Source of the DNA: Chamaelirium japonicum
Taxonomy: Eukaryota; Streptophyta; Magnoliopsida; Liliales; Melanthiaceae
DNA length: 64,000 nucleotides
NCBI GenBank assembly: GCA_947650365.1
Contig: OX393555.1
Coordinates: 77,939,995-78,003,994 of the forward strand
Direction: 5' to 3'
Positions within the stretch are counted from its first letter, which is position 1. The number at the start of each line of letters is the position of its first letter. Made by a program: the position numbers and the translations under genes. Of this stretch, positions 5,871-28,713 are shown piece after piece. The notes below the pieces were generated by a model. That model did no database searches. It had not been told where the DNA came from and saw only the letters and a program-made list of their open reading frames with translations.

Positions 5871-7801
5871 GGCTACATTCATACGGATGAATTAGAATGG
5901 CAATATTTATTCGTACAAATGAATTATAATGACTATATTCATACAAATGAATTAGAATGACTATATTTGTACAAATGAATTCAAATAGCTCGTACGAATG
6001 AATTAGAATGGCTACCTTCGTACGAATAAAATAGAATGGCTATATTTGTTCGTATGAATGAATAAGAATAGCTACATTCATATGAATGAATTAGGATAGA
6101 TCTTACGAATGAATTAGAATGGCTACTATTGTACGAATGAATTAGAATGGTTACATTCGTACAAATGAATTAGAATGGCTTATACGAATGAATTAAAATG
6201 GCTCATACAAATGAATTAGAATGACTACCTTCATACGAATGAATTAGAATGGCTATATTTGTATGAATGAATTAGAATGGCTTAATTCATTCATACGAAT
6301 GAATTAGATGGCTATATTCGTACAAATAAATTAGAATGACACATACGAATGAATTAGAATGGTTAAATTCATATAAATGAATTAGAATGGCTATATTTGG
6401 ATGAATGAATTAGAATGCCTATATTCGTTTGTACGAATGAATTAGAATGGTTTGTACAAATAAATTAGAATGGCTATCTTTGTACGAATTAATTAGAATG
6501 CCTATATTCGTACGAATAAATTAGAATGGCTCATACGAATGAATTATAATTGCAACCTTCGTACTAATGAATTAGAATGGCTACATTCGTTCATATGAAT
6601 GAATTAGAATGACTACATTTGTACGAATAAATTAGAATGACTCGTACGAATTAATTAGAATGTCTACCTTCATACGAATGAATTAGAATAGCTATATTCG
6701 TAGGACTGAATTAGAATGACAACATTCGTTCAAACGAATGAATTAGAATGGCTACATTCATACGAATGAATTAGAATGGCTCGTACGAATACATCAAAAT
6801 AGCTACCTTCGTACGAATGAATTATAATGGCTATATTTGTATCAATGAATTAGAATGGCTATATTAATACAAATGAATTAGAATGTCTCATACGACTGAA
6901 TTAGAAAGGCTACCATCATACGAATGAGTTAGAATGGCTATATTAGTATGAATGAATTGGAATGGGTATATTTGTGCGTACGAATAAATTAAAATAAATA
7001 CATTCGTACGAATGAATTACAACAGCTCATACCAATGAATTAGAATGACTACCTTCGTACGAATGAATAAGAATAGCTACATTCATTGAATGAATTAGAA
7101 TTGCTACATTCGTTTGTACGAATGAATTATAATGGCTACATTCGTATGAATGATTTAGAATGGCTGGTACGATTGAATTGGAATAGCTACCTTTGTACGA
7201 ATAAAATAGAATGACTACATTCATATGAATGAGTTAGAATGGCTACATTCGTTCATACAAATGAATTAGAATGACTATATTCATACAAATAAATTAGAAT
7301 GGTTCATACGAATGAATTAGATTGGCTACCTTTGTACAAATGATATAGAATGGCTACGTTTTTATGAATGAATTAGAATAGCAATATTCGTTCGTATGAA
7401 TGAATTAGAATAGCTATATTCGTACGAATGAATTAGATTGGCTCTTATGAAAAAATTAGAATGACTACCTACGTACGAATGAATTAGAATGCCTTTATTT
7501 ATACGAATAATTAGAATGGCTATATTTATTTGTATAAATAAAACATAATAGCTATATTCATACAAATTAATTAGAATGGCTTGTACGAGTGAATTAGAAT
7601 GTCTACCTTTATACGAATGAATTAGAATAAAAATATTCATACGAATGAATTAGAATGGCTACATTCATTCAAACAAATGAATTAGAATGGCTACATTCAT
7701 ACGAATAAATTAGAATGGCTTATACGAATGAATTAGAATGTCTAGCTTCGTACGAATGAATTAGAATGACTACATTTTCACCAATAAATTAGAATGACTA
7801 T
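5871..7801. repeat. AT-rich satellite array, left block
   Basis: Tandem copies of a short module: GAATTAGAATGGCTA followed by a variable spacer and the palindrome ATTCGTACGAAT. Modules of about 23, 28, 28, 32 and 28 bp recur in that order, giving a higher-order period of about 139 bp. This block holds about 14 higher-order units. It is cut at 7801 by insertion of a Tat element and resumes at 20062. Short open frames here (Ile/His/Ser-rich) are by-products of the repeat. Confidence 0.92.
7797..7801. repeat. Target-site duplication, left (ACTAT)
   Basis: ACTAT here matches ACTAT at 20057-20061. Satellite sequence runs up to it on the left and resumes after its partner on the right. Confidence 0.9.
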
Positions 7802-8695
7802 TGTGGGGGGTTCTGAATCGAACCGGGCGGTTCGGGTGGCGAGCACAATCCAACAAGCCAAAATAAAAACAAACCGGGAATTACGTGGAAAACCCCTTCG
7901 CAACGTCGAAGGGGAAAAAACCACGGGCGGGGCGAGAATGCACTAGAACTATCTTTCGGTTACAATCTCTCATCTAAACCCAAATTACATTCCCTGAGGA
8001 CCGGTCTCCCAAACTACCGACCTCTGTAATTTCACTCTGTCTACCGACCGCTGCGGACAGCGTCTGTCTGCAGGTCGCTTGCAAACAGTGTCTGGCTGCT
8101 GACCGACCGACCTCCGCAGACAGACTCTGGGTGCAGACCGACCGACCTCCGCAGACAGCTTCTGGGTGCAGACCGACCGACCTCCGCAGACAGCTTCTGG
8201 GTGCAGACCGACCGACCTCCGCAGACAGCTTCTGGGTGCAGACCGACCGACCTCCGAAGCTCCGCGAATTCCGGGACGAAACGGGCAGCGTCTCCTCCAG
8301 AAGCTGTCTGCGGAGGTCGGTCGGTCTGCACCCAGAAGCTGTCTGCGGAGGTCGGTCGGTCTGCACCCAGAGTCTGTCTGCGGAGGTCGGTCGGTCAGCA
8401 GCCAGACACTGTTTGCAAGCGACCTGCAGACAGACGCTGTCCGCAGCGGTCGGTAGACAGAGTGAAATTACAGAGGTCGGTAGTTTGGGAGACCGGTCCT
8501 CAGGGAATGTAATTGGGGTTTAGGTGAGAGATTGTAACCGAAAGATAGTTCTAGTGCATTCTCGCCCCGCCCGTGGTTTTTTCCCCTTCGACGTTGCGAA
8601 GGGGTTTTCCACGTAATTCCCGGTTTGTTTTTATTTTGGCTTGTTGGATTGTGCTCGCCACCCGAACCGCCCGGTTCGATTCAGAACCCCCCACA
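7802..8695 (+). repeat. Palindromic 5' LTR of element A: inverted U5-R joined to R-U5, no U3
   Basis: Positions 7802-8302 (501 bp) are the reverse complement of 19591-20056 of the 3' LTR plus one extra 35-bp repeat; 466 + 35 = 501, so there is no other length difference. Positions 8297-8695 are the same LTR region in direct orientation, corresponding to 19658-20056. The arms share CCAGAA (8297-8302). The whole U3 (18673 to about 19580), including the TATA box at 19551, is missing. The left arm contains 35-bp units of the form GCACCCAGAAGCTGTCTGC: three with AGAAGC and one with AGAGTC. The 3' LTR has two and one. Two substitutions separate the left arm from the other copies near 7977-7988. Confidence 0.9.
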
Positions 8696-8698
8696 ATC

Positions 8699-8717
8699 TT
8701 GGCGCCGTCTGTGGGAT
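8699..8717 (+). other. Primer-binding site of element A
   Basis: TTGGCGCCGTCTGTGGGA starts a few bases after the LTR end (8695). Element B has the near-identical TTGGCACCGTCTGTGGGA at the same place, which supports both calls. Confidence 0.8.
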
Positions 8718-8823
8718 AGTCTTCGAGACTTCCTACTAATAGCTTTCGACTGTAGACCCGTGGGTGTCGATCAGTCCGAAGCTACCTGCAACCAGCAGTC
8801 CACGACCACACGGTTGAAGAACG

Positions 8824-11800
8824 ATGGCCGGTGGACCGTATCGTACTCGCTCGACGTCGCAGCTCCTGTCCGAAGCCGCACCACTCGGAGATGCGAATGA
8901 CGTCGGGCGTCTTGTTCAACAACCAACGGACACGGAGCGCGTAGTCCCGTTGGCGAATCCTGTACTGGGGGTCGGGGAGTCCAGTCAAGCTCCGGTAGCA
9001 ACCCTGGCTCCTCTGACAGGGGGTCTATCGGAAGCTTTTCTGGTAACAATGATGATGACCCAGCAAGCTCTCACCACCCAGCTCCAAACGATGCAGCGCA
9101 ACTACGAGGAGTTGCGTGACTTCGTGCGGGCCACGCCGGTGGGCGGTCTGCTCAACCAGGGCATGTTGGCCCAAGCGGGACAGAGTCTCCCCACTCAAGC
9201 TGCCCCACCAGTGCAAATGCAGCCGCAACCAGTGCCTCAGGTGGAGGTCAGGGGTAATCGCTCGGTGGAGGTCCAGAGTGCAAATCCCGATGGGCGAGAC
9301 TCGAGCAGCCCGGAGCCTGCGGAGAGAACCAAACATGCGCGAGCGGCGTCGGCACGCTCGGATGTCTGGTCCCGGCTCGGAGCACACCCCCGACAGCCGC
9401 ATGCCTCCAAGCATCACTCGAAGACGGACTCGGCACAAGTGTGTCGCCCGAAGCGAGATGAAGAATGTCATCGTCAACCGAGTGATAGTCACCACACTCG
9501 GATGACGCCAGCTAGTCGGCAGCCGGCTCATACTACTGATCGGAGGAGCGTACACGAGCGCATTCGGGTACATGCGTCGGAGCGACTCGGGGAGCGAGAG
9601 GAGATCCAGCGAGACCGACCGGGGGTCCGAGCTCCCGACCGGTTGGAGGAAGTCGCCATCCGAGGAGCCGCACGGTCGCCGCTTGTCGAGAGGCTACTCC
9701 GGGAGCCGTTCCCTCGAGGATGGAATCCTCCACGCCTTCCCAAGTTTGACGGATCGAAAGACCCGGTGGAGCATGTACTGGCTTTCCGGGATGCCTTGGT
9801 CCCGCATGAGGATGATCATATCCTCTGCCGGACCTTCGCCAACAGCTTGTCGGGAACCCCCCTCGAATGGTTCCACAAGCTTAGGCCCTCGTCCATCTCC
9901 TCCTTCTCGGAGCTGAGCACGCGGTTCATCGACCAGTACCGATGTAATCGCCGGGAGCTGAAGACTCTGGAGTCACTCTTCGGGATGAGTATGACCCAGA
10001 AGGAGACGCTCCGACAATTCTACCATAGGTTCAGGTCCGAGTACCTGAGCTTGGCGGACGCAGACGGGCAGGATCGCATGGTGATCGCGGCCTTCAAGAA
10101 CGCCATCCAGCCTGCCCAACTCGTCAACGCGTCGCTCATCAAGCGGACTCCGGAGACGATCGACGAGCTGTCGCGGCGCGTTGAGAAGTATATCAAGATT
10201 GAAGACGCGGACCGCAAGAGGAAGGCGGTGGAAACCAGGGTCCCGCACCAGGGCTACGCCAAGCCTGCTGCTGTGAAGAACGTCAACAAGCAGCAGGGGG
10301 ATGCGACACGGCACGAGGCGAAGCGGCAAAGGCAAGACAGGCCAGCGAGGCCGCAGTGGAACAGGGAGTTCACAGTACTGAACGCCCCCATTGACCAGAT
10401 TCTGGAAGCCATCAAGGGCGAACCATACTTCAAGTGGGCGCAACCGCTTGAACCTGGAGAGAGAGGAGCCAGAGATGCGTCAAGGTACTGCGAGTACCAC
10501 CAGGGCCAAGGCCACACTACCCTACAGTGTCGGGCGCTCAAACATCATATTGAGGATCTCATTGAGGCCGGCCATATTGGCTGCTTCATTGACCTCCCTC
10601 AACGCAAAGAGACTAAAGCAGTAGGGGAAGTCCAGCGAGGAGCGACGGCGCAGCGCTTACCGGGCCCTCCACCAGAAAGACGCCAGCTCCGAGAGGTAGA
10701 CGGCGTCTACGGGTACCCTGGCCCTGTACCGTCGGCAAATGCCGTCGACCGACAGGTGCGGCGTATTGAACAAACAAGGCAAGTCCACCATGTGGTGCTT
10801 GACCCTGTCATCCGTCCTGAGCCAAAAGTGGAAGCTGCAGTACAATTTTCGGCTGCTGATTTGGTCGGAATAGAGAGGCCTCACAACCATCCCCTGGTCA
10901 TACGGCTGCAGATAGCCAATTGCCTAGTGAAGAGAATTCTGGTCGACGCCGGAAGTTCAGTTGATGTGCTCTTCCTCAGCGCCTTCGACGCCATGCAGCT
11001 AGATCGTGGACAAATGACCGAATCGTCATCGACGATAACGGGCTTCACGGGGGAGGCTGCAAGGGTGGTTGGTGAGATCACCCTCCTGATCACAATAGGA
11101 CATCTCACTAACCTCACCCGGTTCATTGTGATCGAAGCTCATTCGGCATACAACATTATCCTCGGAAGACCGTGGCTCCACCACTTGGATGCGGTCCCCT
11201 CATCGGCCCATCAGGTGGTAAAGTTTTGGACCGACAAGGGTGTGATGAGCATTCGAGGTGACCAGTCCTCGGCAGCCAAGTGCGAGCTCAGTGCCATCCA
11301 TCTGAAGACGACATGCCAAATCGAAGGGGGAGAGCCAGGTGAAGGCGGCGATGAGTTGGGCATCCTCAACCTCTGGACTGCGAGGCAAAGTCGAGAAGCA
11401 CCCACGCTCCAGCACCACGCCCTATCAAGCGTACGAGCGCGAGGAGACCAAGCATCTGAGAAGACCGACCTGTCAGTTGAACTTAAAGAACTGACAGTGT
11501 CGGGGGACCTGCTGAAGACCGACCTGTCGGCTGAACGTAAAGAGCTGATAGTGTCGGAAGACCTGCTGAAGACCGACCTGTCAGCTGAACGTAAAGAGCT
11601 GACGGTGTCGGGGGACCTACAGAAGACCGACCATTCAGTTGAACGTAAAGAACTGAATGCGTCAAGGAGCTTGAAGAAGACCGGTCAGTTAGCTGAACTT
11701 AAAGAGCTAACTAGCCCGAGCGACCCGATGGAGATCGACCTACCAGCTGAAGGTAAAGAGCTGAGCAGGATGACGCACCCCCAAAAGACTGACCAACCGG

Positions 11801-11946
11801 TTGAATTTAAAGAACCGGACGAGTTGGAGAGCCCGAACGCGGAGTGGGAGGAGTCGCCTGCCGTCGAGCCAATTCTGCCCGTGGACTTAGGAGAAGCGGG
11901 TCATCCGAGGATAACTTTTCTCGGGTCGCAGCTGCCGAAGCCATGA
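8824..11946 (+). CDS. Gag-protease polyprotein of Tat element A
   Basis: 1040 codons, starting about 107 bases after the primer site. Residues 1-290 are a low-complexity basic/polar region. Residues about 296-465 are the retrotransposon gag domain (PRLPKFDGSKDPVEHVLAFR, then LEWFHKL and SLFGMSM). Near residue 555 is a CX2H-type finger (CEYHQGQGHTTLQC), the Tat version of the zinc knuckle. The aspartic protease lies around residues 690-800, with active site LVDAGSSVDVLF (DAGS rather than DTGS) and the later ILGRPWLH motif. The C-terminal residues 880-1002 are seven copies of an about 18-21 residue unit of the type KTDLSAERKEL. Product: virus-like-particle protein plus maturation protease. The stop codon overlaps the pol ATG. 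No inactivating mutation was seen. Confidence 0.93.
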   Translation: MAGGPYRTRSTSQLLSEAAPLGDANDVGRLVQQPTDTERVVPLANPVLGVGESSQAPVATLAPLTGGLSEAFLVTMMMTQQALTTQLQTMQRNYEELRDFVRATPVGGLLNQGMLAQAGQSLPTQAAPPVQMQPQPVPQVEVRGNRSVEVQSANPDGRDSSSPEPAERTKHARAASARSDVWSRLGAHPRQPHASKHHSKTDSAQVCRPKRDEECHRQPSDSHHTRMTPASRQPAHTTDRRSVHERIRVHASERLGEREEIQRDRPGVRAPDRLEEVAIRGAARSPLVERLLREPFPRGWNPPRLPKFDGSKDPVEHVLAFRDALVPHEDDHILCRTFANSLSGTPLEWFHKLRPSSISSFSELSTRFIDQYRCNRRELKTLESLFGMSMTQKETLRQFYHRFRSEYLSLADADGQDRMVIAAFKNAIQPAQLVNASLIKRTPETIDELSRRVEKYIKIEDADRKRKAVETRVPHQGYAKPAAVKNVNKQQGDATRHEAKRQRQDRPARPQWNREFTVLNAPIDQILEAIKGEPYFKWAQPLEPGERGARDASRYCEYHQGQGHTTLQCRALKHHIEDLIEAGHIGCFIDLPQRKETKAVGEVQRGATAQRLPGPPPERRQLREVDGVYGYPGPVPSANAVDRQVRRIEQTRQVHHVVLDPVIRPEPKVEAAVQFSAADLVGIERPHNHPLVIRLQIANCLVKRILVDAGSSVDVLFLSAFDAMQLDRGQMTESSSTITGFTGEAARVVGEITLLITIGHLTNLTRFIVIEAHSAYNIILGRPWLHHLDAVPSSAHQVVKFWTDKGVMSIRGDQSSAAKCELSAIHLKTTCQIEGGEPGEGGDELGILNLWTARQSREAPTLQHHALSSVRARGDQASEKTDLSVELKELTVSGDLLKTDLSAERKELIVSEDLLKTDLSAERKELTVSGDLQKTDHSVERKELNASRSLKKTGQLAELKELTSPSDPMEIDLPAEGKELSRMTHPQKTDQPVEFKEPDELESPNAEWEESPAVEPILPVDLGEAGHPRITFLGSQLPKP
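11461..11830 (+). repeat. Seven coding tandem repeats, each with a stem-loop
   Basis: Each unit (about 54-63 bp) has a left arm, a loop of the type GAACGTAAAG, and a complementary right arm. Unit 1 pairs CTGTCAGTT with AACTGACAG, unit 4 pairs CATTCAGTT with AACTGAATG, and unit 5 pairs AGTTAGCT with AGCTAACT. Units 2 and 3 keep 9 pairs with one or two G-T wobbles; units 6 and 7 keep about 5-6. The arms differ between units but stay self-complementary. The repeat lies in frame between protease and the pol start. Confidence 0.85.
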
Positions 11947-14900
11947 CGATATTTCTCAAGGCAAACCTGGACGTGTTCGCATGGTCAGTTGAGGACATGC
12001 CAGGCATCAACCCCGAGGTAGCCTGTCATCACCTCAATATACGAGAAGGAGCTGCGCCTGTACGTCAGAAGCCCCGGTCGCTAGCACCGGAAAAAGCAGC
12101 AGCTGTCAACATGGAGGTAGAGAAGCTGCTACGAGCTGGCATCATCAGAGAGGCTCGGTACCCGAAGTGGATCGCTAACGTGGTTGCCGTCCCCAAGAAG
12201 TCAGGAGCCATTCGTGTCTGCATCGACTTCACGAATCTCAACCAGGCGTGCCCGAAGGACAGCTACCCGCTACCACGCATCGATACCCTGGTGGATTCCA
12301 CGGCGGGACACGAGAGGCTCTCGTTCATGGACGGTTACTCAGGCTATCACCAGATCCCCATGAATCCGGAAGACCAGGAGCACACGACCTTTGTCACGGG
12401 TCGAGGGCTTTTCTGCTACAAGATGATGCCTTTCGGGCTGAAGAACGCTGGAGCGACGTACCAGAGGCTGGTAAACAAGATGTTCGTCGACCAAATCGGA
12501 AGGAACGTGGAGGTCTACGTCGACGACTTGCTGGTGAAGAGTCAGGCTGAGGATACGCACATGCAAGACCTGGAGGAAACCTTCGCAACCCTGCGTAGGT
12601 ACAGTATGAAGTTGAACCCGGCCAAGTGCGCCTTCGGCGTGACGTCGGGAAAATTTCTGGGATACTTGGTCACCCGACGGGGAATCGAAGCCAACCCAGA
12701 GCAGATCCGAGCTTTGGAGGAGATGCCGTCGCCCAAGTCACGAAAGGAAGTCCAGAAGCTTACCGGACGGATCAACGCCCTCAATCGCTTCATTTCCAAG
12801 TCCTCAGATCGGTGTCGGCCCCTGTTCGAGAGGCTGAGTAAGCTCGCACCTTTCGACTGGGACCAACGCTGTGAAGAGGCGTTTCAAGAGCTAAAGACGT
12901 ATCTTGGCCGACCCCCTATCTTGACAGCCCCCCGGCCAGGTGCAACGCTGGGGGTGTATCTTTCGGTATCGGAGGCAGCAATCAGCGCTGTACTGATATG
13001 CGAGAGTGAAGGAGTGGAGAAGCCTGTCTACTACGTCAGCCGCATCATGACGTCAGCTGAAACTCGGTACGCGCGGATCGAACAAGTTGCCCTGGCATTA
13101 GTGTACGTGTCAAGGAGGCTTCGCCCGTACTTCGTCGCTCACCCCATCGAGGTCATCACCGAGCACCCCCTGAAGGAAGTACTGGATAACTCTACTCGGG
13201 CAGGTCGGCTGAGCAAGTGGGCTGCAGAGCTGCAAGAGTTTGGTCCTCGGTATGTGCCTCGGAAAGCAGTCAAGGGCCAAGCACTTGCGGACTTCCTCAG
13301 CGATTTTCCGGCGGAAGACACTGCACCGGTACCAGAGACGTTAGAAGACCTGTCGATAGCTGCCGGTCGACCCGTGGGAGTCGGTGTGGCAGCAGGACAG
13401 GAAGACGAAGAACAGGGCTGGAGATTGTTTGTGGATGGCTCGTCGTGCGCAGTCGGGAGTGGTGTGGGGGTAGTCCTAGTAACCCCCGACCACACGAAGC
13501 TCGAAAAATCAGTGCGGCTACTTTTTCCGACGACGAATAATGTAGCGGAGTACGAGGCGATGCTGACAGGACTGGAGATGGCGACAGCGCTGGGGGTGAC
13601 CAGCCTGCAGGTCTACGGCGACTCCCAACTGGTAATCAATCAGATTACCGGTAGGTATGAAGCCCGCGACGCAAGGATGCAAGCCTACCTGAAGCTTGCT
13701 CGGGAGTTGATTGCCAAGTTCGAAGACATAAGCTTCAACCAGTTCCCCAGAGCGGAAAACAAGCAGGCGGATGCCCTTGCTAATCTAGCATCGGTACTCG
13801 GAGAAGACAGAGAGAAGCGGGTCTTCATCGAGGTGCAAGCTGACCCACGAACAGTCGGCCCCGCAGAAGATAGTTGCCTGACGAGGAGGACACAAGCCGT
13901 TGAAGCGGCCCATACCATTGCGGTCGGAGCGGATTGGATAGGCAACATGAAGAAGTACCTACTTGATGGGATATTACCAGAGGACGTCGATGAGGCCCGA
14001 AGAACCAAGGCGCACGCTCCAAGATATACCCTCATCGACGACGAGCTGTACAAGCGCTCGTTTGGCGGACCGTACCTCAAGTGCCTCACGAAGGAACAAG
14101 CGGCAGCAATTATGAAAGAGGTACACGAAGGGGGGTGCGGGAACCATTCTGGAGGAAGAGCCCTGGCGCGGAAGATAAAGTTGCAGGGCTACTACTGGCC
14201 AACCATGGAAGCGGATGCGGGGGGATATGCAAAAAGATGCTTGCAATGTCAAAAGCATGCCCCCTCCATACATCAACCCGCAGAAGAGCTGCACCCAGTA
14301 TCCAGCCCTTGGCCCTTCCAACAGTGGGGGTTGGATATCTTGGGCCCCTTCCCGACGTCGCCCAACCGGAGGAAGTTCCTCCTCGTCGCCACCGACTACT
14401 TCACCAAGTGGGTGGAGGCAATCCCGTTGCTGAAAATCGGGGAAGTTCAAGTAGGAAAGTTCCTATGGAGCAGCATCATCTGCCGATTTGGACTGCCGCG
14501 GGCTTTCGTTGCAGACAACGGGCGACAGTTCGACGCGGAGTCAATCAAGAAGTTCTACGCCAGTAACAACATCAAGTTATTCTTCTCTACACCGCGGTAC
14601 CCCCAGAGCAACGGGCAGGCAGAGTCGACGAATCGTGCCATTCTCGACATACTGAAGAAGAAGCTGGAGCAGAAGAAGAGATTGTGGGAAGAAGCTCTAC
14701 CCGGAGTTTTATGGGCATATCGGACGACACCGAAGCGACCGACGGGAGAGTCCCCGTTCAGCCTTACCTACGGCTCTGAAGCAGTCCTGCCAACGGAGAC
14801 CCTGGTCCCGACACAGAGAACGGTCGTAGCTGCCGACCCGAAGCTGAATGACGAACTCCTGCTTGATGGCCTGGACCTGCTGGAAGAGAAGAGGGAGAGA

Positions 14901-15179
14901 GCGAGGGCGCGCCTAGCTAACTACCATCAAGCCATCAAGAGGGCATATGATCGCAAAGTCAGAAGGCGGGTATTCAAACAAGGGGACCTAGTTATGCGGA
15001 AGGTCTTCGACAACACCAAGGAGCTGGGAAGTGGCAAGCTGGGAGCTACTTGGGAAGGACCGTACATCATCGATGGTATGGGGAAAAATGGAGCCTACCG
15101 CCTGAAGACTCAAGACGGCGACGCGCTGGCGAGGCCATGGAATGCAGCCAATCTTCGCAAGTTCTACCAGGGTAGTTAA
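11943..15179 (+). CDS. Pol polyprotein of Tat element A (RT, RNase H, archaeal-like RNase H, integrase)
   Basis: 1078 residues if it starts at the ATG at 11943, which overlaps the gag-protease stop as ATGA (frame -1). The open frame extends upstream to 11844, so a frameshift fusion is also possible. Reverse transcriptase: FTNLNQACPKD, MPFGLKNAGATYQRLV and catalytic VYVDDLLVKS near residue 191. The Ty3-type RNase H follows (SAVLICESEGVEKPVYYVS). The second RNase H begins near residue 495 (RLFVDGSSCAVGSGVG, YGDSQLVINQ, NKQADALANLA), diagnostic of Tat. Integrase: HHCC zinc module (HEGGCGNHSGG ... CLQC) near residue 726; catalytic residues in WGLDILGPF, VADNGRQFD and NGQAESTNRAI; a C-terminal WEGPY module. 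Converts RNA to DNA and integrates it. No disabling change seen. Confidence 0.95.
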   Translation: MTIFLKANLDVFAWSVEDMPGINPEVACHHLNIREGAAPVRQKPRSLAPEKAAAVNMEVEKLLRAGIIREARYPKWIANVVAVPKKSGAIRVCIDFTNLNQACPKDSYPLPRIDTLVDSTAGHERLSFMDGYSGYHQIPMNPEDQEHTTFVTGRGLFCYKMMPFGLKNAGATYQRLVNKMFVDQIGRNVEVYVDDLLVKSQAEDTHMQDLEETFATLRRYSMKLNPAKCAFGVTSGKFLGYLVTRRGIEANPEQIRALEEMPSPKSRKEVQKLTGRINALNRFISKSSDRCRPLFERLSKLAPFDWDQRCEEAFQELKTYLGRPPILTAPRPGATLGVYLSVSEAAISAVLICESEGVEKPVYYVSRIMTSAETRYARIEQVALALVYVSRRLRPYFVAHPIEVITEHPLKEVLDNSTRAGRLSKWAAELQEFGPRYVPRKAVKGQALADFLSDFPAEDTAPVPETLEDLSIAAGRPVGVGVAAGQEDEEQGWRLFVDGSSCAVGSGVGVVLVTPDHTKLEKSVRLLFPTTNNVAEYEAMLTGLEMATALGVTSLQVYGDSQLVINQITGRYEARDARMQAYLKLARELIAKFEDISFNQFPRAENKQADALANLASVLGEDREKRVFIEVQADPRTVGPAEDSCLTRRTQAVEAAHTIAVGADWIGNMKKYLLDGILPEDVDEARRTKAHAPRYTLIDDELYKRSFGGPYLKCLTKEQAAAIMKEVHEGGCGNHSGGRALARKIKLQGYYWPTMEADAGGYAKRCLQCQKHAPSIHQPAEELHPVSSPWPFQQWGLDILGPFPTSPNRRKFLLVATDYFTKWVEAIPLLKIGEVQVGKFLWSSIICRFGLPRAFVADNGRQFDAESIKKFYASNNIKLFFSTPRYPQSNGQAESTNRAILDILKKKLEQKKRLWEEALPGVLWAYRTTPKRPTGESPFSLTYGSEAVLPTETLVPTQRTVVAADPKLNDELLLDGLDLLEEKRERARARLANYHQAIKRAYDRKVRRRVFKQGDLVMRKVFDNTKELGSGKLGATWEGPYIIDGMGKNGAYRLKTQDGDALARPWNAANLRKFYQGS

Positions 15180-15288
15180 ATGGGCAAGATGCATGTAACC
15201 GTTTTGTAACTCTGAAGCTAGTCAATAAAAATGCATTTGCTCAACGTTTTTGTTCATGTGAATGAATAATGGTTAGCCGAGGCAACCC

Positions 15289-15870
15289 AAACCAAGTGGT
15301 ACATAACACTCCGAGCGAGTTCTACCACTTGGCCGACCGGTCGACAGGTCCCTGCGAAGGGCAAGACCGGCCGGTGAACAACTGGAAAGATCGGTCGACA
15401 GACCCTGTCAGGGTACGACCGGTTAACCAGTCTAAACCAAGTGGTACATAACACTCCGAGCGAGTTCTACCACTTGGCCGACCGGTCGACAGGTCCCTGC
15501 GAAGGGCGAGACCGGCCGGTGAACAACTAGAAAGATCGGTCGATAGACCTCGTCGGGGTACGACCGGTTGACCAACCTAAACCAAGTGGTATATAACACT
15601 CTGAGCGAGTTCTACCACTTGGCTGACCGGTTGACAGGTCCCTGCGAAGGGCGAGACCGGCCGGTGAACAACTGGAAAGAGCGGTCGACAGACCCCGTCG
15701 GGGTACGACCGGTTGACCAACCTAAACCAAGTGGTATATAACACTCCGAGCGAGTTCTACCACTTGGCCGACCGGTCGACAGGACCCTGTGAAGGGCGAG
15801 ACCGGCCGGTGAACACTTGGGAAAATCGGTTAGCAAAACCCGCGGGGGAACAACCGATCAACTCACGCAA
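15289..15870 (+). repeat. Four 145-bp tandem repeats downstream of pol
   Basis: Units start near 15289, 15434, 15579 and 15724. Each begins CCAAGTGGTA and about 25 bases later has TACCACTTGG, a 10-bp inverted repeat, followed by palindromic GACCGGTC motifs. Non-coding. Sequence between 15180 and 15288 holds only the pol 3' flank. Confidence 0.88.
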
Positions 15871-15904
15871 ATAATCCGGGGTATATCAGCCGTGCTAATA
15901 CAAG

Positions 15905-16170
15905 GACCGGATTTTGGTCGCGCGTCGTCGACGTGTAGTTGCGCGTCGTCGACGTGTAGTTGCGCGTCGTCGACGTGTAGTCGCGCGTCGTCGACGTGTG
16001 GTTACGCGCGTCGACGTGTAGTTGCGCGTCGTCGACGTGTAGTAGCGCGTCGTCGGCGTGTAGTTACGCGCGTCGACATGTAGTTGCGCGTCGCCGGCGT
16101 GTAGTTACGTGCATCGACGTGTGGCTCAGCTTGTCGTCGACGTGTAGATACACACATCGTCGACGAGTAG
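15905..16170 (+). repeat. Minisatellite with GTCGTCGACGTGTAG units
   Basis: About ten imperfect units of about 19-22 bp based on GCGTCGTCGACGTGTAGTT. Related motifs (TCGGCGTGCAG, TCGACGTGTAT) recur at 16745-16805 and 18255-18385. The family is thus found beyond the 3' end of the antisense gene, in its probable intron, and in its 5' leader. Confidence 0.85.
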
Positions 16171-16349
16171 TAAAAGCACAAACAGATCATCGACGTAAAC
16201 TTGAGAGGCAGAGTTGATGAAAAAGGCAACAGTCATGAAGTGCAGATGAAATGTTAAGAGATCCCAGTACAAATAGGAGCTTTGTTTTATTACATCACGA
16301 AACAAAGTAAGGCAGCAAGCAAGGGTGGTCAGTCGTCGTCCTCAGCTTT

Positions 16350-18252
16350 CTACGATCCCGACGGGAGCTTGCCGCGCAGCTTCGCGACCTTCTTGCGCCA
16401 TTCATCCGCCTGCTCCGCAAGGAGCGACTTGCAATGCGCGGTGTATTCAGCCTGCTGCCTGTCAAGCGCAGCCTTGTGGGCTGCTTCGGTCTGGTCAAGG
16501 GAAGCCTTCAAAGCGGCAATTTCGGCCTCGTGAGCGGCTTGAACGGCGTGGGCCTCTGCACGCTGTTCCCTGATCGTAGCTGCCTGCGCCTCGAACTTTG
16601 CCCACACCTCGTAGTTTTCTACCTTAGCAGAATCCAATGCTTCTTGGAGCCCGAAGGGAGACCTTAAGATGCGTCATCCTTTGCATGCCTCCCTCAACAA
16701 GTCGACAGCCCGCCTGACAAAAAAGGAGTGAAGTTAAAACATATCGTTGGCATGTAGTTATGCATATCGTCGGCGTGCAGTCATGCGCGTCGCCGACGTG
16801 CAGTCAACTCGTTAACGACTTACTTACCTCATGAAACTCGTCGAGCTGACGCTCCCAGCCAGGACTACCCACACAATCATCTTCCTCACCGCAATCTTCA
16901 GTAGCTCCGGGAGAACGACGATGGGACGAAGCTTCAGTGGCCCTGAAGGGAGAATGGGGGGGTGGCCTGGTGGCGCCCCCAGACGCAGAGGAGCAAGGTG
17001 AAGGCAGAAACTCTCGGACCTCAGCACGATCAAGCTTTCTAGAGGCAGGGGCAGCAGTTGGTGCGATGGTAGGTGCAGCAGGGGGACCGCGGGGTGAAGC
17101 TCGCCTACGCGACCCAGCCGAGCCAGAAGGTATGGCTCGCTCGTCTCGCCCGAGGGAGGGAGAGGGACTATAACCGGGGCTCATCTCCGACTCCTCTACC
17201 TCCACGTACTGCTTGCCCGTCGACAGCACGTCCTCTACCCAGTCGTCGGGGAGGGAACGAAGGTCGTCGGCGGCGGCACGTCACGTGGAGCGAGCGAGAA
17301 AAGCGCGTCCAGCCTCTTCGTCGCTGGAAGACTCGTTCAGCAAAACTCGCCTCCTTGATTTCCCAGTAGGCGCAGCTACGTTGCGCTCGGCCGGTCGGCT
17401 GCTCTCGCCTGCAGCTTTAGTCGACTTCGCGCGCCGCCTGAAGACCACGCAGAGTTTAGATGTAGCGGTGTTTGGATTGAAGCGTCTGACGGAGCTGACG
17501 TACCTGTCAGGAAGCTCAGAAGAGTAAGAAGTGGGTTCTTCTCCCCTACCGGACGTCGCACCCTGTTTGCCTTTCTTCGAAGTGGAGCTGTAGGACCTGA
17601 CGACCGGTAGCTTCGGAAACAGCTACCGCCAGTCGTCATCGTTGTTTGTCACCTCCTTGATGAGTTGGTCCAACTCCTCTTCAACAGCTCCGGGGCACTG
17701 AAGCTGCCTGGAGGGGTAGTACTCCTCAATGGTCGCGGCGAGTTGGGAGAGACGACTAGGAACGTTGAAGCCACCCCTCCAAGGTCCCCCGACCACAATG
17801 GGGCATTCTTTCCAAGTCCTTACTGAATCAGCTAAACCCCCAATAGGAGGGCGACTGCCTACACGCGCCTGCAGGCTGAAGTATGAGAAGATGCTGCCAG
17901 GCGTCACCTTGTAGTCTTTGAGGAAATACTTCTTCAGCAGGTACGCGACGCAAAGCTGCTGCCCCGCCCGCACCTCTATCTCTTCCATGCAGCGGAGGAT
18001 CCTCCAGCCGTTGCCAGCTAGCTGGCCAGGAGACACGCTCATGCGCTCCAGTAGACGACCAGAGAAACTCGCCAGGGGAAGCCGCATGCCGCAGCGAAGC
18101 TGACCGAGCGTGACGACGGTGTGGTCGTCGTCTGACGAGTCCAGAGGATCGGTAGCGAAAGAAAGCGTAATTTCATCTGGAATACCGTATGCTGCCCGGA
18201 CATCCTCCATCAGTGGGAACTTGTTCGGCACTGTGAACCAGGTGAAAGACAT
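16350..18252 (-). pseudogene. Antisense gene of Tat element A (aORF), broken by nonsense codons
   Basis: Runs opposite to gag-pol, from the ATG ending at 18252 (MSFTWFTVPNKF). The core GQLRCGMRLPLASFSGRLL ... SPGQLAGNGWRIL matches the antisense frame of element B and resembles the 'putative gypsy-type transposon' family (PF04195-like, my inference). One reading frame spans 18252 to 16828 except for a TAG at 17625-17623 and a TGA at 17283-17281. A strong donor (GTAAGTAAG, from 16827) and an acceptor after a T-run (TTTTTTGTCAG, ending 16714) suggest a 114-bp intron. The last part (16637-16350) is an Ala/Glu/Gln-rich coiled coil; it is reached only through another stop, and the splice phase is not clean. 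An upstream ATG at 18456 lies too close to the TATA box to be the start. Function unknown. Confidence 0.75.
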
Positions 18253-18254
18253 CT

Positions 18255-18385
18255 TCGCAGCAGGTCTTCGACGTGTATCCAAGGAGCTGACGCGCAAGCA
18301 CTCGACGTGTATACAAACGAGCTGACGTGCAGGCACTCGACGTGTATACAAACGAGCCGACACGCAAGTCGTCGACGTGTATTCA
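18255..18385 (-). repeat. Short tandem repeat in the antisense-gene leader
   Basis: Three to four copies of an about 36-bp unit containing TCGACGTGTATACAAACGAG, lying between the antisense TATA box and its ATG. Related to the minisatellite at 15905-16170. Confidence 0.75.
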
Positions 18386-18462
18386 GGCGAAACTCCTCCC
18401 AAATGAGCCTTCAGCCACAGAGGAAAGATCTGAAGCAGAGGAGAAAAACGAACCATCTGACT

Positions 18463-18473
18463 CCTATTTATAG
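18463..18473 (-). promoter_or_regulatory. TATA box of the antisense gene in element A
   Basis: The minus strand reads GTCTATAAATAGG, a canonical plant TATA, about 215 bases before the ATG at 18252. Initiation about 30 bases downstream would place the repeat at 18255-18385 in the 5' leader. Confidence 0.65.
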
Positions 18474-18658
18474 ACGAAGTTGGAGATGGGTGGGTTCGAA
18501 TTTCGAAAAGGCGAGGTGGCGGCGCCCGGCGACGCCATATGGTGAGAAGTCAGAAGAAACTCTGGACAGCTTTTTTGAGTTGCAACAGCCCCGAACTGAG
18601 GCGGGCACGCAAATCGAGGCAAATCATCCTGACCGGGCGGGACCGAAGACCGTCCGGT

Positions 18659-18672
18659 CAGGAGGGGGTATT
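18659..18672 (+). other. Polypurine tract of element A
   Basis: AGGAGGGGGTA lies directly before TGTGTGTATC, the inferred U3 start. Element B has the near-identical GGAGGGGGTAAC followed by TGTGGGTGC at its 3' LTR edge (minus strand, around 28614-28625). This comparison is why I place the LTR start at 18673. Confidence 0.75.
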
Positions 18673-18699
18673 GTGTGTATCATTCTTTTTTGGAGCCGG

Positions 18700-19345
18700 T
18701 CGGCCGGTCGGTTGGTCCACAAAGGGGGCAGCACCCCCCCCCTCTCTTTGTAAGTCGGCATGTAGCCAAGCAAGGGGGCCGGTCGGTTGGTTCACCAAGG
18801 AGGCAGCAGCCCCCCCCTCCTTGTGGGTCGGCATGTACCCAAAGGGGGGGGGGTCCGGTCGGTTGTTTCACAGAAGAGGCAGCAGCCCCCCCCTCTGTGT
18901 GGGTCGGCAGGTACCCAAAAGGGGGGGGGGCGGTCGGTTGTTTCACAGAGGAGGCAGCAGCCCCCCCCCCTCCTTGTGGGTCGGCATGTACCCAAAAGGG
19001 GGGGGGCCGGTCGGTTGTTTCACAGGGGAGGCAGCAGCCCCCCCCCTCCTTGTGGGTCGGCATGTACCCAAAAGGGGGGGGGGGGCGGTCGGTTATTTCA
19101 CAGAGGAGGCAGCAGCCCCCCCCCTCTCTTTGTGGGTTGCCATGTAGCCAAGGGGGGCCGGTCGGTTGTTACACAAAGGGGGCAGCAGCCCCCCCCTCTC
19201 TTTGTGGGTGGGCATGTAGCCAAAAGGAAGGGGGGGGTCGGCCGGTCACCAAAGGGAAGCACACCCCCCCCCCTCCTCCTTTTGAGGTCGGCATGTAGAC
19301 AGAGAAAAGGGGGGGGGGTCGGTTGGTTGGTTCATAAAGAGGGTA
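18700..19345 (+). repeat. U3 tandem repeats with long G and C runs
   Basis: About eight units of roughly 75-85 bp. Each has a run of 6-12 G followed by GGTCGGTTG, TTTCACA, GAGGCAGCAG and a run of 6-9 C. G and C runs on the same strand can pair, so each unit is a potential hairpin. Long open frames on both strands here are by-products of the repeat. Homopolymer lengths may carry sequencing error. Confidence 0.88.
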
Positions 19346-19550
19346 GCAGCCCCCCTTCTCGACGGGATGTGTAACGAAATGAGGAGTGAAGCAGCAGTCT
19401 GACACGGCCCGTAGTGCTGACAACGCTCCGCATTTTCCGGCCCAACGTGACCAGGTGTCAACCGCGCGCCACGTCACCGCGGCGGTTGAGCTCATTGCGG
19501 GGACACATCACTCGCCCGATTTTCGCGGAGTGTAACCGTCACCCCGCCAC

Positions 19551-19559
19551 TATAAAAGG
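19551..19559 (+). promoter_or_regulatory. TATA box in U3 of element A
   Basis: CTATAAAAGGGG lies about 30-40 bases before the point (19591) where the inverted copy in the 5' LTR begins, so that point is close to the expected start of R. Confidence 0.75.
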
Positions 19560-20061
19560 GGACCTACCCCTTCAGCAAAAGAGAGAAGATTTCTGGAGGA
19601 GACGCTGCCCGTTTCGTCCCGGAATTCGCGGAGCTTCGGAGGTCGGTCGGTCTGCACCCAGAAGCTGTCTGCGGAGGTCGGTCGGTCTGCACCCAGAAGC
19701 TGTCTGCGGAGGTCGGTCGGTCTGCACCCAGAGTCTGTCTGCGGAGGTCGGTCGGTCAGCAGCCAGACACTGTTTGCAAGCGACCTGCAGACAGACGCTG
19801 TCCGCAGCGGTCGGTAGACAGAGTGAAATTACAGAGGTCGGTAGTTTGGGAGACCGGTCCTCAGGGAATGTAATTGGGGTTTAGGTGAGAGATTGTAACC
19901 GAAAGATAGTTCTAGTGCATTCTCGCCCCGCCCGTGGTTTTTTCCCCTTCGACGTTGCGAAGGGGTTTTCCACGTAATTCCCGGTTTGTTTTTATTTTGG
20001 CTTGTTGGATTGTGCTCGCCACCCGAACCGCCCGGTTCGATTCAGAACCCCCCACAACTAT

Positions 20062-23000
20062 ATTCATTTATACGAATGAATTAGAATGATTACATTTGTA
20101 CGAATGAATTAGAATGGCTCATATGAATAAATTAGAGTAGATACCATCGTACGAATGAATTAGAATGGCTATATTCATACAAATGAATTAGAATGGCTAT
20201 ATTCGTTCGTATAAATGAATTAGAATGGCAACATTCGTACGAATGAATTAGAAAAGCTCGTACGAATGAATTAGAATAACTACCTTTGTACGAAATATTA
20301 GAATGACTATATTCATTCGTATGAATGAATTAGAGTAGCTACATTTGTACGAATGAGTTCGAATGGATCGTACAAATTAATTAGAATGGCTACCTTCGTA
20401 CGAATAAATTAGAATGGCTACATTCGTTCGTTTGAATGAATTTGAATGTCTACATTTATATAAATTAATTAGAATGGCTCGTACGAATGAATTAGAATGA
20501 CTACCTTCGTACGAATGAATTAGTATGGCTACATTCGTACGAATGAATTAGAATAGCTATATTTGTTTAAATGAATGAATTAGAATAGCTACATTCATAC
20601 TAATGAATTAGAATGGCTCGTCCGAACTAATTAGAATGGCTACTTTTGTACGAATGAATTAGAATGACTATATTCGTTCGTATAAATGAATTAGAATGAC
20701 TACATTCGTAAGAATGAATTAGAATGGCTTATACGAATGAATTAGAATAGCTATCTTCATACGAATGAATTAGAATGGCTAAATTCATACGAATGAAATA
20801 GAATGGCTACATTCATTCGTATGAATAAATTAAAATGGCTATATTCGTACGAGTGAATTAGAATGGCTCATACGAATGAATTAGAATGGCTACCTTTGTA
20901 CGAATAAATTAGAATGGCTACATTCGTACGAATGAATTAGAATTGCTATATTCGTATGAATAAATTAGAATGGCTATATTCGTTTCTATGAATGAATTAA
21001 AGTAGCTATATTCGTACGAATGGATTAGAATTGCTTAGTACGAATGAATTAGAACGGCTACATTCGTACAAATGAATTAGATTGGCTATATTCGTCTGTA
21101 CAATGAATTAGAATGTCTATATTGATACAAATCAATTAAAATGGCTCGTACGAATGAATTAGAATAGCTACCTTTGTACGAATGAATTAGAATGACTATA
21201 TTCGTATGAATTAATTAGAATGGTTACATTCGTTCGTATGAATGAATTAGAATGGCTACATTTGTACGAATGAATTAGAATAGCATGTACGAATGAATTA
21301 GAATGGCTAACTTCGTACGAATGAATTACAATGGTACATTCATTTATATGAATGAATTAGAATGACTGCATTAGCATAAATGAATTCAAATGGCTCGTAC
21401 GAATAAATTAGAATGGCTACCTTCGTACAAAAGAATAAGAATGGTTACATTCGTATGAATAAATTAGAATAGATCTTATGAATAAATTAAAATGACTACC
21501 TTCGTACAAATGAATTAAAATGGTTACATTCGTATGAATAAATTAGAATGGCTCGTATAAATGAATTAGAAATGCTATATCCGTACGAATGAATTAGAAT
21601 GGCTCATACAAATGAATTAGAATGACTGTCTTCGTACAAATAAATTAGAATGGATATATTCATATGAATGAATTAGAATGGCTATATTCATTCGTACGAA
21701 TAATTTAGATTGGCTACATTCATACGAATGAATTTGAATGACTCATACGAACGAATTAGAATATCTACCTTTCATGCAAATAAATTAGAATGGCTATATT
21801 TGTATGACTAAATTAGAATGGCTACATTCAATAATACGAATGAATTAGAATAGCTATATTCGTATGAATAAATTATAATTGCTTGTACGAATGACTTAGA
21901 ATTTCTACATTCGTACGAATGAATTAGAATGACAATATTTGTTCGTACGAATGAATTAGAATGGCTACATTCGTACGAATGAATTAAAATGGCTTGTACA
22001 AATGAATTAGAATGGCTGCCTTCATATGAATGAATTAGAATGACTATGTTCATACGAATGAATTAGAATGGCTACATTTGTCCGTATGAATTAACTATAG
22101 TGGCTACATTCGTACGAATGAATTAGAATGGCTTGTACGAATGAATTATAATGGCTACCTTTGTATGAATTAATTAGAATGGCTACATTCGTACGAATGA
22201 ATTTGAATAGCTACATTCATTCGTATGAATGAATTAAAATGGCTACATTCGTACGAATGAATTAGAATGACTTGTATGAATGAATTAGAATGCCTACCTT
22301 TGTACAAATGAATTATAATGGCTACTTTCGTACGAATGATTTAGAATGGCTATATTCGTTCATACGAATGAATTAGAATATCTATATTCATATAAATGAA
22401 TTAAAATAACTTGTAGTAATGAATTAGAATGGCTACCTTCGTACGAATTAATTAGAATGGCTACATTCGTACGAATGAATTAGAATGACTATATTCATTT
22501 GTATGAATGAATTAGAATGACTATATTCGTACGAATGAATTAGAATAGCTCTTACGAACAAATTAGAATGGCAACCTTCATACGAATGAATCAGAATGGC
22601 TACATTCATACGAATAAAATAGAATAGCTACATTCATTCATACGAATGAATTAGAATGGCTATATCTCTACGAATGAATTATAATGGTTCGTACGAATGA
22701 ATTAGAATAGCCACCTTTGTACGAATGAAATAGAATGCCTACATTCGAACGAATGAATTAGAATGGCAATATTTGTTCGTACGAATGAATTTGACTGGCT
22801 ATATTCGTACGAATGAATTAAAATAGCTCGTACGAATGAATTAGAATTGCTACCTTCGTACGAATGAATTAGAATGGCTACATTCGTATAAATGAATTAG
22901 AATAGCTACATTCATTCGAACAAATGAATTAGAATTCCTACATTCGCACGAATGAAATAGAATGGCTAGTACGAATGAATTATAATAGCTACCTTGATAC

Positions 23001-26000
23001 GAATGAATTAGAATGCATATATTTTTTATAATGAATTAGAATGGCTATATTCGTTTATATGAATGAATTAAAATGGCCACATTCGTACGAATGAATTAGA
23101 ATGTCTACATTCGTACGAATGAACTATTATGGCTCGTACGAATGAATTAGAATGTCTACCTTCGTACGAATGAATTAGAATAGCTATATTCGTATGAATG
23201 ACTTAGAATAGCTATATTCGTTTGTATGAATAAATTGGAATGGCTATATTCATATGAATGAATAAGAACAACTCGCACGAACAGATTAGAATGGTTACCT
23301 TTGTACAAATTAATTAGAATGGCTATACTCTTACGAATGAATTGAAATATCTATATTCGTTCGTACGAATGAATTAGAATAGCTACATTCATACGAATGA
23401 ATTAGAATAGCTTGTAGGAATTAATTAGAATGGCTAGCTTCGTACAAATGAGTTAGAATGGCTACATTTGTACGAATGAATTAGAATAGTTACATTCATT
23501 CGTACGAATGAATTATAATGGCTACATTCGTACGAATGAATTAGAATGACTACTTCCATACGAATGAATTAGAATGACTATATTCGTTCATATGAATGAA
23601 TTAGAATGACTATATTCGTACGAATAAATTAGAATGACTCATACGAATTAATTAGAATGACTACCTTTGTACGACTGAATTAGAATGGCTACATTTGTAT
23701 AAATAAATTAGAATGGATTCATTCGTTCGTATGAATGAATTAGAGTAGCTACATTCGTATGAAAGAATTAGAATGGCTCGTACGAATAAATTTGAATGGC
23801 TATATTCATACGAATAAATTTGTATGGCTACATTCATACGAATGAATTAGAATGGATACATTCATTCGTACGAATGAATTAGAATATCTACATTCATACG
23901 AATGAATTAGAATGCTCGTACGAATTAATTAGAATGGCTACCTTTGTACGAATGAATTAGAATGGCTACATTCGTATGAAAGAATTAGAATGGCTACATT
24001 TGCTTGTACAAATGAATTAGAATAGCAATATTCGTACAAATGAATTAGAATGGCTCGTACGAACGAATTAGAATGGCTACCTTCGTACGAATGAATTAAA
24101 ATAGCTACATTCGTTCGTATGAATGAATTAGAATGGCTATATTCGTACAAATGAATTAGAATGGCTATATTCGTACGAATGAATTAGAATGGCTTGTACG
24201 AATGAAATAGAATGGCTACCTTTGTACGAATAAATTAGAATGGCTACATTCGTACTAACGAATTAGAATGGCTACATTCATTCATACGAATGAATTAGAA
24301 TGGCTACATTCGTATTAGAATGGCTTGTATGGATAAATTAGAATGACAATCTTTGTACAAATGAATTAGAATGACTATATTCGTACGAATGAATTAAAAT
24401 AGCTACATTCATTCGTATGAATGAATTAGAATGGCTACATTGGGACAAATGAATGAGAATGGCTTGTACGAATAAATTAGAATAGCTACCTTCGTACGAA
24501 TGAATTAGAATGGCTCTGACGAATGAATTAAAATGTCTACCTTCGTACGAATGAATTAGAATAGCTATATTCGTACAAATATAGTATAATGACTACATTC
24601 ATTCATACGAATGAATTAGAATGGCCATAATCGTACTAATGAATTAGGATAGCTCCTACAAATAAATTAGAATGGCTACCTTCATACGAATAAATTAGAT
24701 TGGCTATATTTATATCAATAAATTAAAATGGCTACATTCGTTCGTACGAATGAATTGGAATGGCTATAGTCATACAAATGAATTAGAATGGCTCGTACGA
24801 ATGAATTAGAATGGCTACCATCATACGAATGAGTTAGAATGGCTACATTCGTACAAAGGAATTAGAATGGCTACCATCATACGAATGAGTTAGAATGGCT
24901 ACATTCGTACAAATAAATTAGAATGGATACTTTCGGATGTACGAATGAATTAGAATGGCTACTTTCGTACGAATGAATTCGAATTGCTCGTACCAATGAA
25001 TTAGAATGCCTACCTTCGTACGAATGAATAAGAATGGCTATATTTGTACGAATGAATTAGAATTTCTATATTCATTCGTACGAATAAATTAGAATGACTA
25101 CGTTCGTATGAATGAATCAGAATAGCTGGTATGATTGAATTAGAACAGCTACCTTTATAAGAATGAATTAGAATGGCTATATTCATACGAATGAATTAGA
25201 ATGGCTACATTCCTTTGTACAAATGAATTAGAATGACTACATTCGTATGAATAAATTAGAATGGCTCGTACGAATGAATTATATTGGCTACCTTCATATG
25301 AATGATATAGAATGGATACATTCGTACGAATGAATTAGAATGGCTATATTCGTTTGTACGAATGAATTAGAATAGCTACATTTGTATGAATGAATTAGAT
25401 TGGCTCTAATGAATGAATTAGAATGGCTACCTTTGTATGAATAAATTACAATGGCTTCATTCGTACTCATGAATTAGAATGGCTATATTCGTTTGTATGA
25501 ATAAAATAGAATGGCTATATTCATACAAATAAATTAGAATGGCTCGTGCGAACGAATTAGAATGGCTACCTTCGTACGAATGAATTAGAATAGCAATATT
25601 CGTATGAATGAATTAGAATGGCTACATTCGTTCGTACGAATGAATTAGAATAGCTTCATTCATATGAATAAATTAGAATGGTTTGTACAAATAAATTAGA
25701 ATGGCTAGCTTCGTATGAATAAATTAGAATTGGTATATTTGTACGAATGAATTAGAATGGCTACCTTCGTATGAATGAATTAGAATGGCTATATTCATAA
25801 GAATAAATTAGAATAGCTTGTATGAATGAATTAGAGTAGATACCTTCGTACAAATGAATTAGAATAGCTATATTCATATGTATGAATGAATTAGAATGGC
25901 TATATTCGTTCGTATGAATGAAATAGAATGACAACATTCGTAAGAATGAATTAGAAAGGCTCGTACAAATGAATTAGAATAGCTACCTTCGTACGAATGA

Positions 26001-26352
26001 ATTAGAATGGCTATATTTGTTCGCATGATGGAATTAGAGTACCTACATTTACACGAATGAATTAAAATGGCTCGTACAAATTAATTAGAATATGTACCTT
26101 CGTACAAATGAATTAGAATAGCTACACTCGTATGAATGAATTTGAATGGCTATATTCGTTCGTACGAATAAATTAGAATGTCTATATTCATACGAATGAA
26201 TTAGAATGGCTCGTACGAATGAATTAGAATGGCTACTTTTGTATGAATAAATTAGAATGGCTATATTCATACGAATGAATTCGAATGGCTACATTTGTTT
26301 GTATGAATGAATTAGAATGGCTTCATTCGTACGAATGAATTAGAATGACTTG
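20062..26352. repeat. AT-rich satellite array, right block
   Basis: Continuation of the array at 5871-7801. Landmarks such as the short CTTGTACG/CTCGTACG module recur about every 139 bp (for example near 22131, 22270, 22410 and 22549), giving about 45 higher-order units. Copies differ mostly by C/T and G/A changes in the CpG-containing palindrome. Ends at the LTR of the chromodomain element. No gene. Confidence 0.92.
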
Positions 26353-27770: not shown

Positions 27771-28613
27771 TGTGGGGGAAAAATCTTTGTACCGATCCGA
27801 AGACTTCACCTCATCAGTCAATTGAAGTGGAATTGGAGATCGTTAATTGATCGATCTGTTGATTGGAAGGTAGGTTTGAAGGTTGATGCTTTGAAGACTT
27901 TGAGCTAACTCTTTTGAGGTGTGAATAGTGAGAGATACAATTAGAGAGAAGGTTGAGACAATGTGTGATCTCGGAGTTCAGCCGAAGCCTACGTCTCCGT
28001 GCTATAGGGAGCAACCCGAATTCACTAACACTTTGTTCAAAGTGACCTCGACAGGCCGAGTGTCACTGATCTCTTCAACTTCTTCAAAGACAAGAAGAAG
28101 ATCGAGGAGAGTTGAAGGATTGAAAGCTGGAAATCTCAGAGCTCTGGTTTTGAAATGGATATCAACTGATGGCACTGATCTATTTTCAGAATTCTGTTTC
28201 TGGTTTTGGAATTTGGGTTTTTGCTCTGGGTTTTTGAACTCAGTCCTCTTTTCCTTCCGAAGGCTCTGCTATTTATAGAATTCTCGAGGAGTGAGTCCGG
28301 TGGTAAATGGCGGTTACTGGTCATTTCTGGAAGATTCCCCAAGCAGGGCTGGTGGGTCCCACGGCTGTCTCCTGGGGATTCCACAGGCAGGACTGGTGGG
28401 TCCCGCGATAGTCTTCATGGGCCCACCAGGCAGGGCCGGTGGGTCCCGTGGTAGTCTTCGTGGGCCCACCAGGCAGGGCCGGTGGGTCCCATGGTAGTCT
28501 TCCTGGGCCCACCAGGCAGGGCCGGTGGGTCCCGCGGTAGTCTTCGTGGGCCCATCAGGCAGGGCCGGTGGGTCCCGTGGTTTGCAAACTTCTTGCCAAA
28601 ATTTGCACCCACA
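27771..28613 (-). repeat. 3' LTR of element B (843 bp)
   Basis: Starts TGTGGGGGAAAAATC and ends TTGCACCCACA; nearly identical along its length to 37492-38330. Contains five to six units of about 43 bp (GGTGGGTCCC ... GGGCCCACC) at about 28345-28580. The following bases, GTTACCCCCTCC, are the reverse complement of the polypurine tract. Confidence 0.92.
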
Positions 28614-28713
28614 GTTACCCCCTCCAAGTTAGCTAGAGACCACCCTGGCTGGCTTGGATTATTGGTGCAAAACTAACAACCCCCTGTCATAAATGCAAAG
28701 AAGCTTATCGAGT

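Follow-up and report, generated by a model that had tools for sequence, protein, structure and literature searches.

The window, by which we mean the whole stretch of 64,000 nucleotides that was analysed, holds a Tat/Retand-like element at positions 7802–20056 whose left end is without a U3. The element starts with TGTGGGG at 7802 and lies between two copies of a target-site duplication, ACTAT (7797–7801 and 20057–20061). Its left end is made up of a left arm on the minus strand (7802–8302), an inverted U5-R with the U5 terminus outermost, and a right arm on the plus strand (8297–8695), a direct part of R-U5, the two having the motif CCAGAA in common at 8297–8302. The CCCACA of the right arm ends at 8695 and is followed by ATCT and then by a primer binding site of 18 nt on the plus strand (8700–8717), complementary to the 3' end of tRNA-Lys(UUU). 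By the tRNA numbering that we assume, this site stops short of position A58.

The coding region lies on the plus strand and consists of an open gag frame of 1040 amino acids with a Retrotrans_gag match (8824–11946) and an overlapping open pol frame of 1111 amino acids (11844–15179) with RT, RNase H, a second RNase H and integrase. A domain search placed the second RNase H (RVT_3, aRH) at residues 538–649 in addition to RT_RNaseH at 339–466, that is, between the end of RNase H at 466 and the start of integrase at 750. DIRS-type elements, which have inverted LTRs, carry a tyrosine recombinase instead of an rve integrase, and a DIRS-type element was rejected on the presence of both rve and Integrase_H2C2 domains in pol. 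Between pol and the 3' LTR there are 3.5 kb (15180–18671, plus strand) with 145-bp and 21-bp tandem repeats, which also hold an antisense frame (17623–18456) and a purine-rich tract adjoining the LTR. The antisense frame of 277 amino acids matched Transposase_28, the domain encoded by the antisense frame of Retand elements, at 19.9 bits (E 0.00091), below the cut-off of 26.2 bits. The 3' LTR (18672–20056, plus strand) is a complete U3-R-U5, TGTGTG...CCCACA, in which a TATA lies at 19551 and conserved R sequence sets in at about 19585; a reading made earlier from the sequence only had begun it at 18673, one base too late.

The position of the aRH between RNase H and integrase agrees with the Ogre/Retand group. 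This group belongs to the Tat lineage of Ty3/gypsy, for which excerpts of PMC6317226 give a second RNase H besides the usual one as the criterion. The length of the region between pol and the 3' LTR is within the 2.9–6.6 kb given for Retand elements, where tandem repeats are often present (excerpts of PMC11963269). As far as the excerpts of these two sources go, the element resembles the Retand lineage in domain order, long pol-to-LTR region, antisense frame and 5-bp duplication, whereas its left end is abnormal and its LTR of 1385 bp is longer than the 315–1194 bp of their clusters.

The host array of the element is built of a 28-bp unit (TACGAATGAATTAGAATGGCTA...), shows several higher periods as well and occupies 5908–7801 and 20071–26347 of the window. 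A second Tat-like element on the minus strand (27770–38330), used as a control of normal anatomy, has LTRs in direct orientation that are 95.6% alike, an end repeat AACAT and a primer site of this kind in which one base is mismatched. Farther on, a 181-bp repeat forms two arrays that face opposite ways and are separated by about 2 kb (53924–55040 and 57094–61375). The tRNA and Rfam scans of the window gave no match, and a viral contig scan with a U5 26-mer gave 0 matches; a bacterial promoter scan, a method not meant for plants, gave nothing useful.

The palindromic left end and the place of its break

Alignment showed the left arm to be the reverse complement of 19591–20056 with one extra 35-bp unit, so that its R-U5 measures 501 nt compared with 466 in the 3' LTR, and with two substitutions, at 7973 and 7982. 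The right arm is identical to 19658–20056 at 399/399 bases and stops short of spanning the 35-bp unit that differs between the left arm and the 3' LTR. The mirror symmetry stops at the U5 terminus. The alignment of the arms thus bears out what the sequence-only reading had proposed, a left end without U3 in which an inverted U5-R is joined to a direct R-U5. It had also described the left arm as an exact-length inverse plus one 35-bp repeat; the extra unit stands, and the exact length does not, the arm being one unit longer. In ordinary LTR pairs of the family 0–3 base differences are normal, and R-U5 lengths are equal within the pair in all 12 of the 12 pairs compared.

The junction is where it had been placed, in the CCAGAA shared by both arms, and a 22-mer across it has one exact place in the 1.52-Gb genome; two more places, with 2 mismatches each, look like ordinary repeat units. 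The match of 6 nt is weak evidence by itself: such a complement is also available to 7 of 74 alternative end positions. The 5-bp duplication that had been claimed is present, and the flanks, once joined, continue the 28-bp array. Since equal random 5-mers would be drawn from the two flanking arrays with a chance of 0.014, the duplication is good, not overwhelming, evidence.

The position of the break relative to R can be judged from a purine tract at the U3/R border (19577–19585, plus strand), which precedes a conserved AAGA(T/A)TTCTGG and is hypervariable between elements and identical in sister LTRs. The strings from TATA to R were of 20 different kinds in 35 LTRs (L001–L040 minus L004, L005, L006, L022 and L038) and identical in the 11 sister pairs read. 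Because the tract varies between elements and is constant in sister LTRs, it would point to the first strand transfer, of which it is perhaps a scar. It lies 26–34 nt behind the TATA, in the region where a plant transcript is expected to start. From this spacing, the border tract and the breaks of two sister copies, R likely starts at 19577–19585.

The break in the window element, at 19591, is 6–14 nt inside this likely start, in agreement with the earlier claim of a break near the start of R. Two sister copies, in which a junction far from the R start would have counted against the earlier reading, break at the R start as well: C3:65000107 at 19585 through GAAGATT, and C1:71093531 at about 19579–19585. 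The chance of one break near the R start is about 16 in 1384. For three breaks within 16 nt of it the probability is about 1.5e-6 if breaks are spread evenly over the LTR; this estimate is rough, since odd copies were what the search for loci had aimed at.

Related copies in the genome

The 23-mer at the U5 end occurs, with at most 1 mismatch, at 422 places in the 1.52-Gb genome, 100 of which were listed. Forty loci were read (L001–L040), 40 of the 2119 candidates having been scored. The two bases at which the left arm differs read GG in 40 of 41 LTR rows, among them the right arm and the 3' LTR of the window element itself, and the substitution pair of the left arm occurs nowhere else in the genome at up to 1 mismatch. 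The substitutions are therefore private and identify no donor, and as a sign of a second RNA they were rejected.

Of the U5 ends that lack the primer site behind them, 137 were collected (exact matches only, ends followed by ATC being left out); the window element is the only outward-facing pair within 40 kb among them. The check for other insertions with two U5 ends was thus carried out with the window element as its one result; two U5 ends are rare in this sample, and the exact fault is without a replicate in it. The pattern CGTCTCCTCCNGAAB was found at 668 places (326 forward, 342 reverse), most of those among the matches listed (100 of 668) being a subfamily variant. The primer site followed by TTCGAA was found at 654 places, 84 of them exact, and occurs in other families too.

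Four loci carry related faults. Three of them were picked by eye as opposite U5-end clusters within 20 kb among the matches listed for the U5-end 23-mer (100 of 422), and the one on C1 was taken from those listed for CGTCTCCTCCNGAAB (100 of 668). The locus C3:64984009-65000613 (16.6 kb; L044, L045, L048–L050) has a U3 end on the left and an inverted block inside; its right-hand R-U5 starts at 19585 and joins the inverted pol-to-LTR region through GAAGATT. Read from the right, it is strong-stop DNA primed by a 7-nt match on minus-strand DNA outside R-U5. Its 5-bp repeat, CCTCT, is weaker evidence because the right flank is a CT repeat. The locus C1:71086755-71100207 (L067, L068, L071, L072) is an older copy, at about 93%, in which a direct R-U5 meets pol at the R start and has an inverted U5 scrap behind it; LTR pieces stand tail-to-tail on its 3' side.

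The other two loci have U3 at both outer ends. At C3:29018990-29036389 (L053–L055; repeat ATATT) one joint runs from U5 through a complete 76-nt tRNA-Lys(UUU) with CCA, called by ARAGORN, into integrase code by way of an 8-nt match; the captured tRNA is direct evidence for the primer of the family. Another joint, PPT-AAA-AGAT-U5, holds an unprocessed U5 end. At C2:99152768-99161751 (L046, L047, L051, L052, L056; repeat TTATT) tail-to-tail LTRs enclose a tRNA-like stretch of about 48 nt that matches tRNA-Lys in about 23 nt, and the copy seems to leave tRNA-Lys for other sequence in the T loop. This locus is less certain because its left LTR starts with TGAGGGG, not TGTGTG. The two U3 ends with their repeats ATATT and TTATT suggest that like-ended integration may also take place in the reverse form.

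A probable fault of reverse transcription and its alternatives

We are confident, though short of certain, that the window element arose as a single aberrant product of reverse transcription, integrated in one event with two U5 ends. A strong-stop origin is supported by the border tract, the two sister breaks at the R start, the two sister copies that have U3 at both ends and the unique junction. From the observed structure, duplication, unique junction, break near the R start and unequal repeat number, we infer the following order of steps. Minus-strand strong-stop DNA, the complement of U5-R, would have halted a few nucleotides before the 5' end of the RNA, with the 3' terminus ...CCAGAA. 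It would have skipped the transfer to the 3' R of the RNA and annealed instead, by 6 nt, to a TTCTGG that minus-strand DNA carries in one of its 35-bp repeats. Plus-strand extension across U5 and the primer site would then have replaced the plus-strand strong-stop DNA primed at the PPT. With its primer-site end the product would next have undergone second-strand transfer in the normal way, the acceptor being a complete minus strand that another strong-stop molecule had started. The outcome would be a linear product with U5 at both termini, both of which integrase could have joined to a 5-bp staggered site.

Since the R-U5 of the left arm exceeds that of the 3' LTR by a 35-bp unit, where ordinary pairs are equal in 12/12, the two probably derive from different strong-stop molecules. 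Repeat slippage could also have supplied the extra unit, as 0 of 12 allows a rate of up to 22% at 95%. Two strong-stop molecules would be expected if two RNAs were co-packaged. For the plant element Onsen such co-packaging has been postulated, with many LTR switches at the first transfer (excerpts of PMC5668417); there too two RNAs feed one cDNA, but the products described in these excerpts are recombinants between family members, not inversions.

On which strand the strong-stop DNA primed is a finer matter. We regard it as close to an even call that the strong-stop DNA made from one RNA used as its template the minus strand started on the second RNA. The right arm equals the 3' LTR over 399 bases while the left arm is off by a 35-bp unit, and the copy at C3:64.98-65.00 Mb shows strong-stop priming on minus-strand sequence outside R-U5; against this, identity of right arm and 3' LTR is equally expected within a young family, and the left-arm substitutions are without a donor at up to 1 mismatch. 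Self-copying of the strong-stop DNA after it had formed a hairpin, with the 3' LTR supplied by another strong-stop molecule, is plausible while falling short of even. The left arm has three TTCTGG sites, at 8160, 8195 and 8230, of which the middle one fits the right arm, and minus-strand strong-stop DNA of HIV-1 is known to self-prime (Guo et al. 1997, via excerpts of PMC4668388). However, in folding predictions at 25 C the last six bases were 57–77% unpaired and about 1% paired to a TTCTGG site, which would count mildly against a stable hairpin, and the two base differences between the arms, private as they are, would necessarily have arisen after the copying. Of the self-primed strong-stop DNA that the sequence-only reading had put forward, the end near the R start, the priming on minus-strand sequence and the integration by two U5 ends thus find support, while priming on itself was not established.

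Explanations outside reverse transcription fare worse. Two opposite insertions in the array followed by an R-to-R deletion, or some other rearrangement after integration, would be compatible with flanks that belong to one tandem array and with a 6-nt overlap, usual in end joining; the equal duplications (chance 0.014), a break near the R start (about 16 in 1384), the near identity of the arms and the sister copies that break at the same place all speak against it. We consider this course improbable, weakened above all by the duplication and the place of the break. Host repair that joined two finished or broken cDNA ends before integration is more improbable still: the joint PPT-AAA-AGAT-U5 at C3:29.02 Mb does resemble end joining of an unprocessed U5 end, but a 500-bp fragment would have had to end near the R start by chance, where strong-stop DNA ends naturally. 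An assembly or sequencing fold-back, of which palindromes are a usual artefact, was rejected as very improbable, as the mirror stops at the U5 terminus and gives way to the flanking array with the duplication, and neither the number of repeats nor the base at two positions is the same in both arms.

Strong-stop DNA that mis-primes is commonly taken to lead nowhere. Should the reading as a single aberrant product be true, a natural copy shows that a mis-primed strong-stop product can finish synthesis and integrate with two U5 ends, and the sister copies suggest that integrase accepts two U3 ends as well. A genome that holds several such fossils with 5-bp repeats lets one read from sequence how reverse transcription fails and which ends a plant integrase chooses. 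As a tentative generalization, strong-stop DNAs of both strands may mis-prime repeatedly at short matches in this Retand-like family while integrase pairs any LTR termini, so that U5/U5, U3/U3 and internally inverted products integrate cleanly. The window copy itself has a left end without a U3 promoter and a 400-bp inverted repeat of R-U5, and a read-through transcript of it could form double-stranded RNA against its family.

A search of the open-licence literature (titles and starts of abstracts) found no description of an integrated LTR made of inverted U5-R joined to R-U5, and strong-stop self-priming was not found in the excerpts of PMC5371799. The HIV-1 case (excerpts of PMC4668388) is alike in that strong-stop DNA primes synthesis instead of being transferred to the 3' R; there, however, it concerns cDNA in reverse transcription and is driven by the TAR hairpin, whereas here an integrated product with a duplication is seen, no TAR-like fold was shown and hairpin and other strand are not separated. 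In grasses, template-switch complexes with duplications were also attributed to faulty strand transfer from a single 5-bp duplication round a composite, two new ones being clearly identified among 4704 elements scanned (Sabot and Schulman 2007, excerpts of PMC1950507); in those complexes the ends are normal and all three LTRs and both interiors run in direct order, in contrast to the inverted arm and two U5 ends found here. HIV-1 proviruses with asymmetric LTRs (PMC9278108) likewise have LTRs that differ within one provirus through a strand-transfer error, but in the excerpts of that source these are mostly deletions of the 3' LTR and no inverted U5-R arm was found; genomic inversions made up 1.3% (n = 1) and inversion with deletion another 1.3% (n = 1).

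Copies of tRNA-Lys and a possible two-part primer site

Copies of the 3' half of tRNA-Lys were found at 44 places in the genome, 43 of which start with TGG, the complement of CCA; tRNA genes are usually without CCA. Six were read (L073–L078), and three of these follow a U5 end of the window element's family. The tRNA identity is lost after 38–44 nt in five of the six, the search pattern itself having a length of 38. The 76/76 tRNA match of L076 is circular: the reference used for it was copied from that very place. Independent support for L076 comes from ARAGORN.

In the window, a further stretch that looks complementary to tRNA-Lys, CCACGACCACACGGTT at 8800–8815, follows the primer site at a distance of 100 nt. 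It is exact over 11 nt to the captured UUU copy, the other tRNA type having CCACGACCACACGG. Primer read-through on tRNA-Lys with a landing on this second box would be the same loose strand transfer. The box is kept with at most 1 mismatch in 18 of 19 readable 5' loci, and together with the primer site it possibly forms a two-part primer site.
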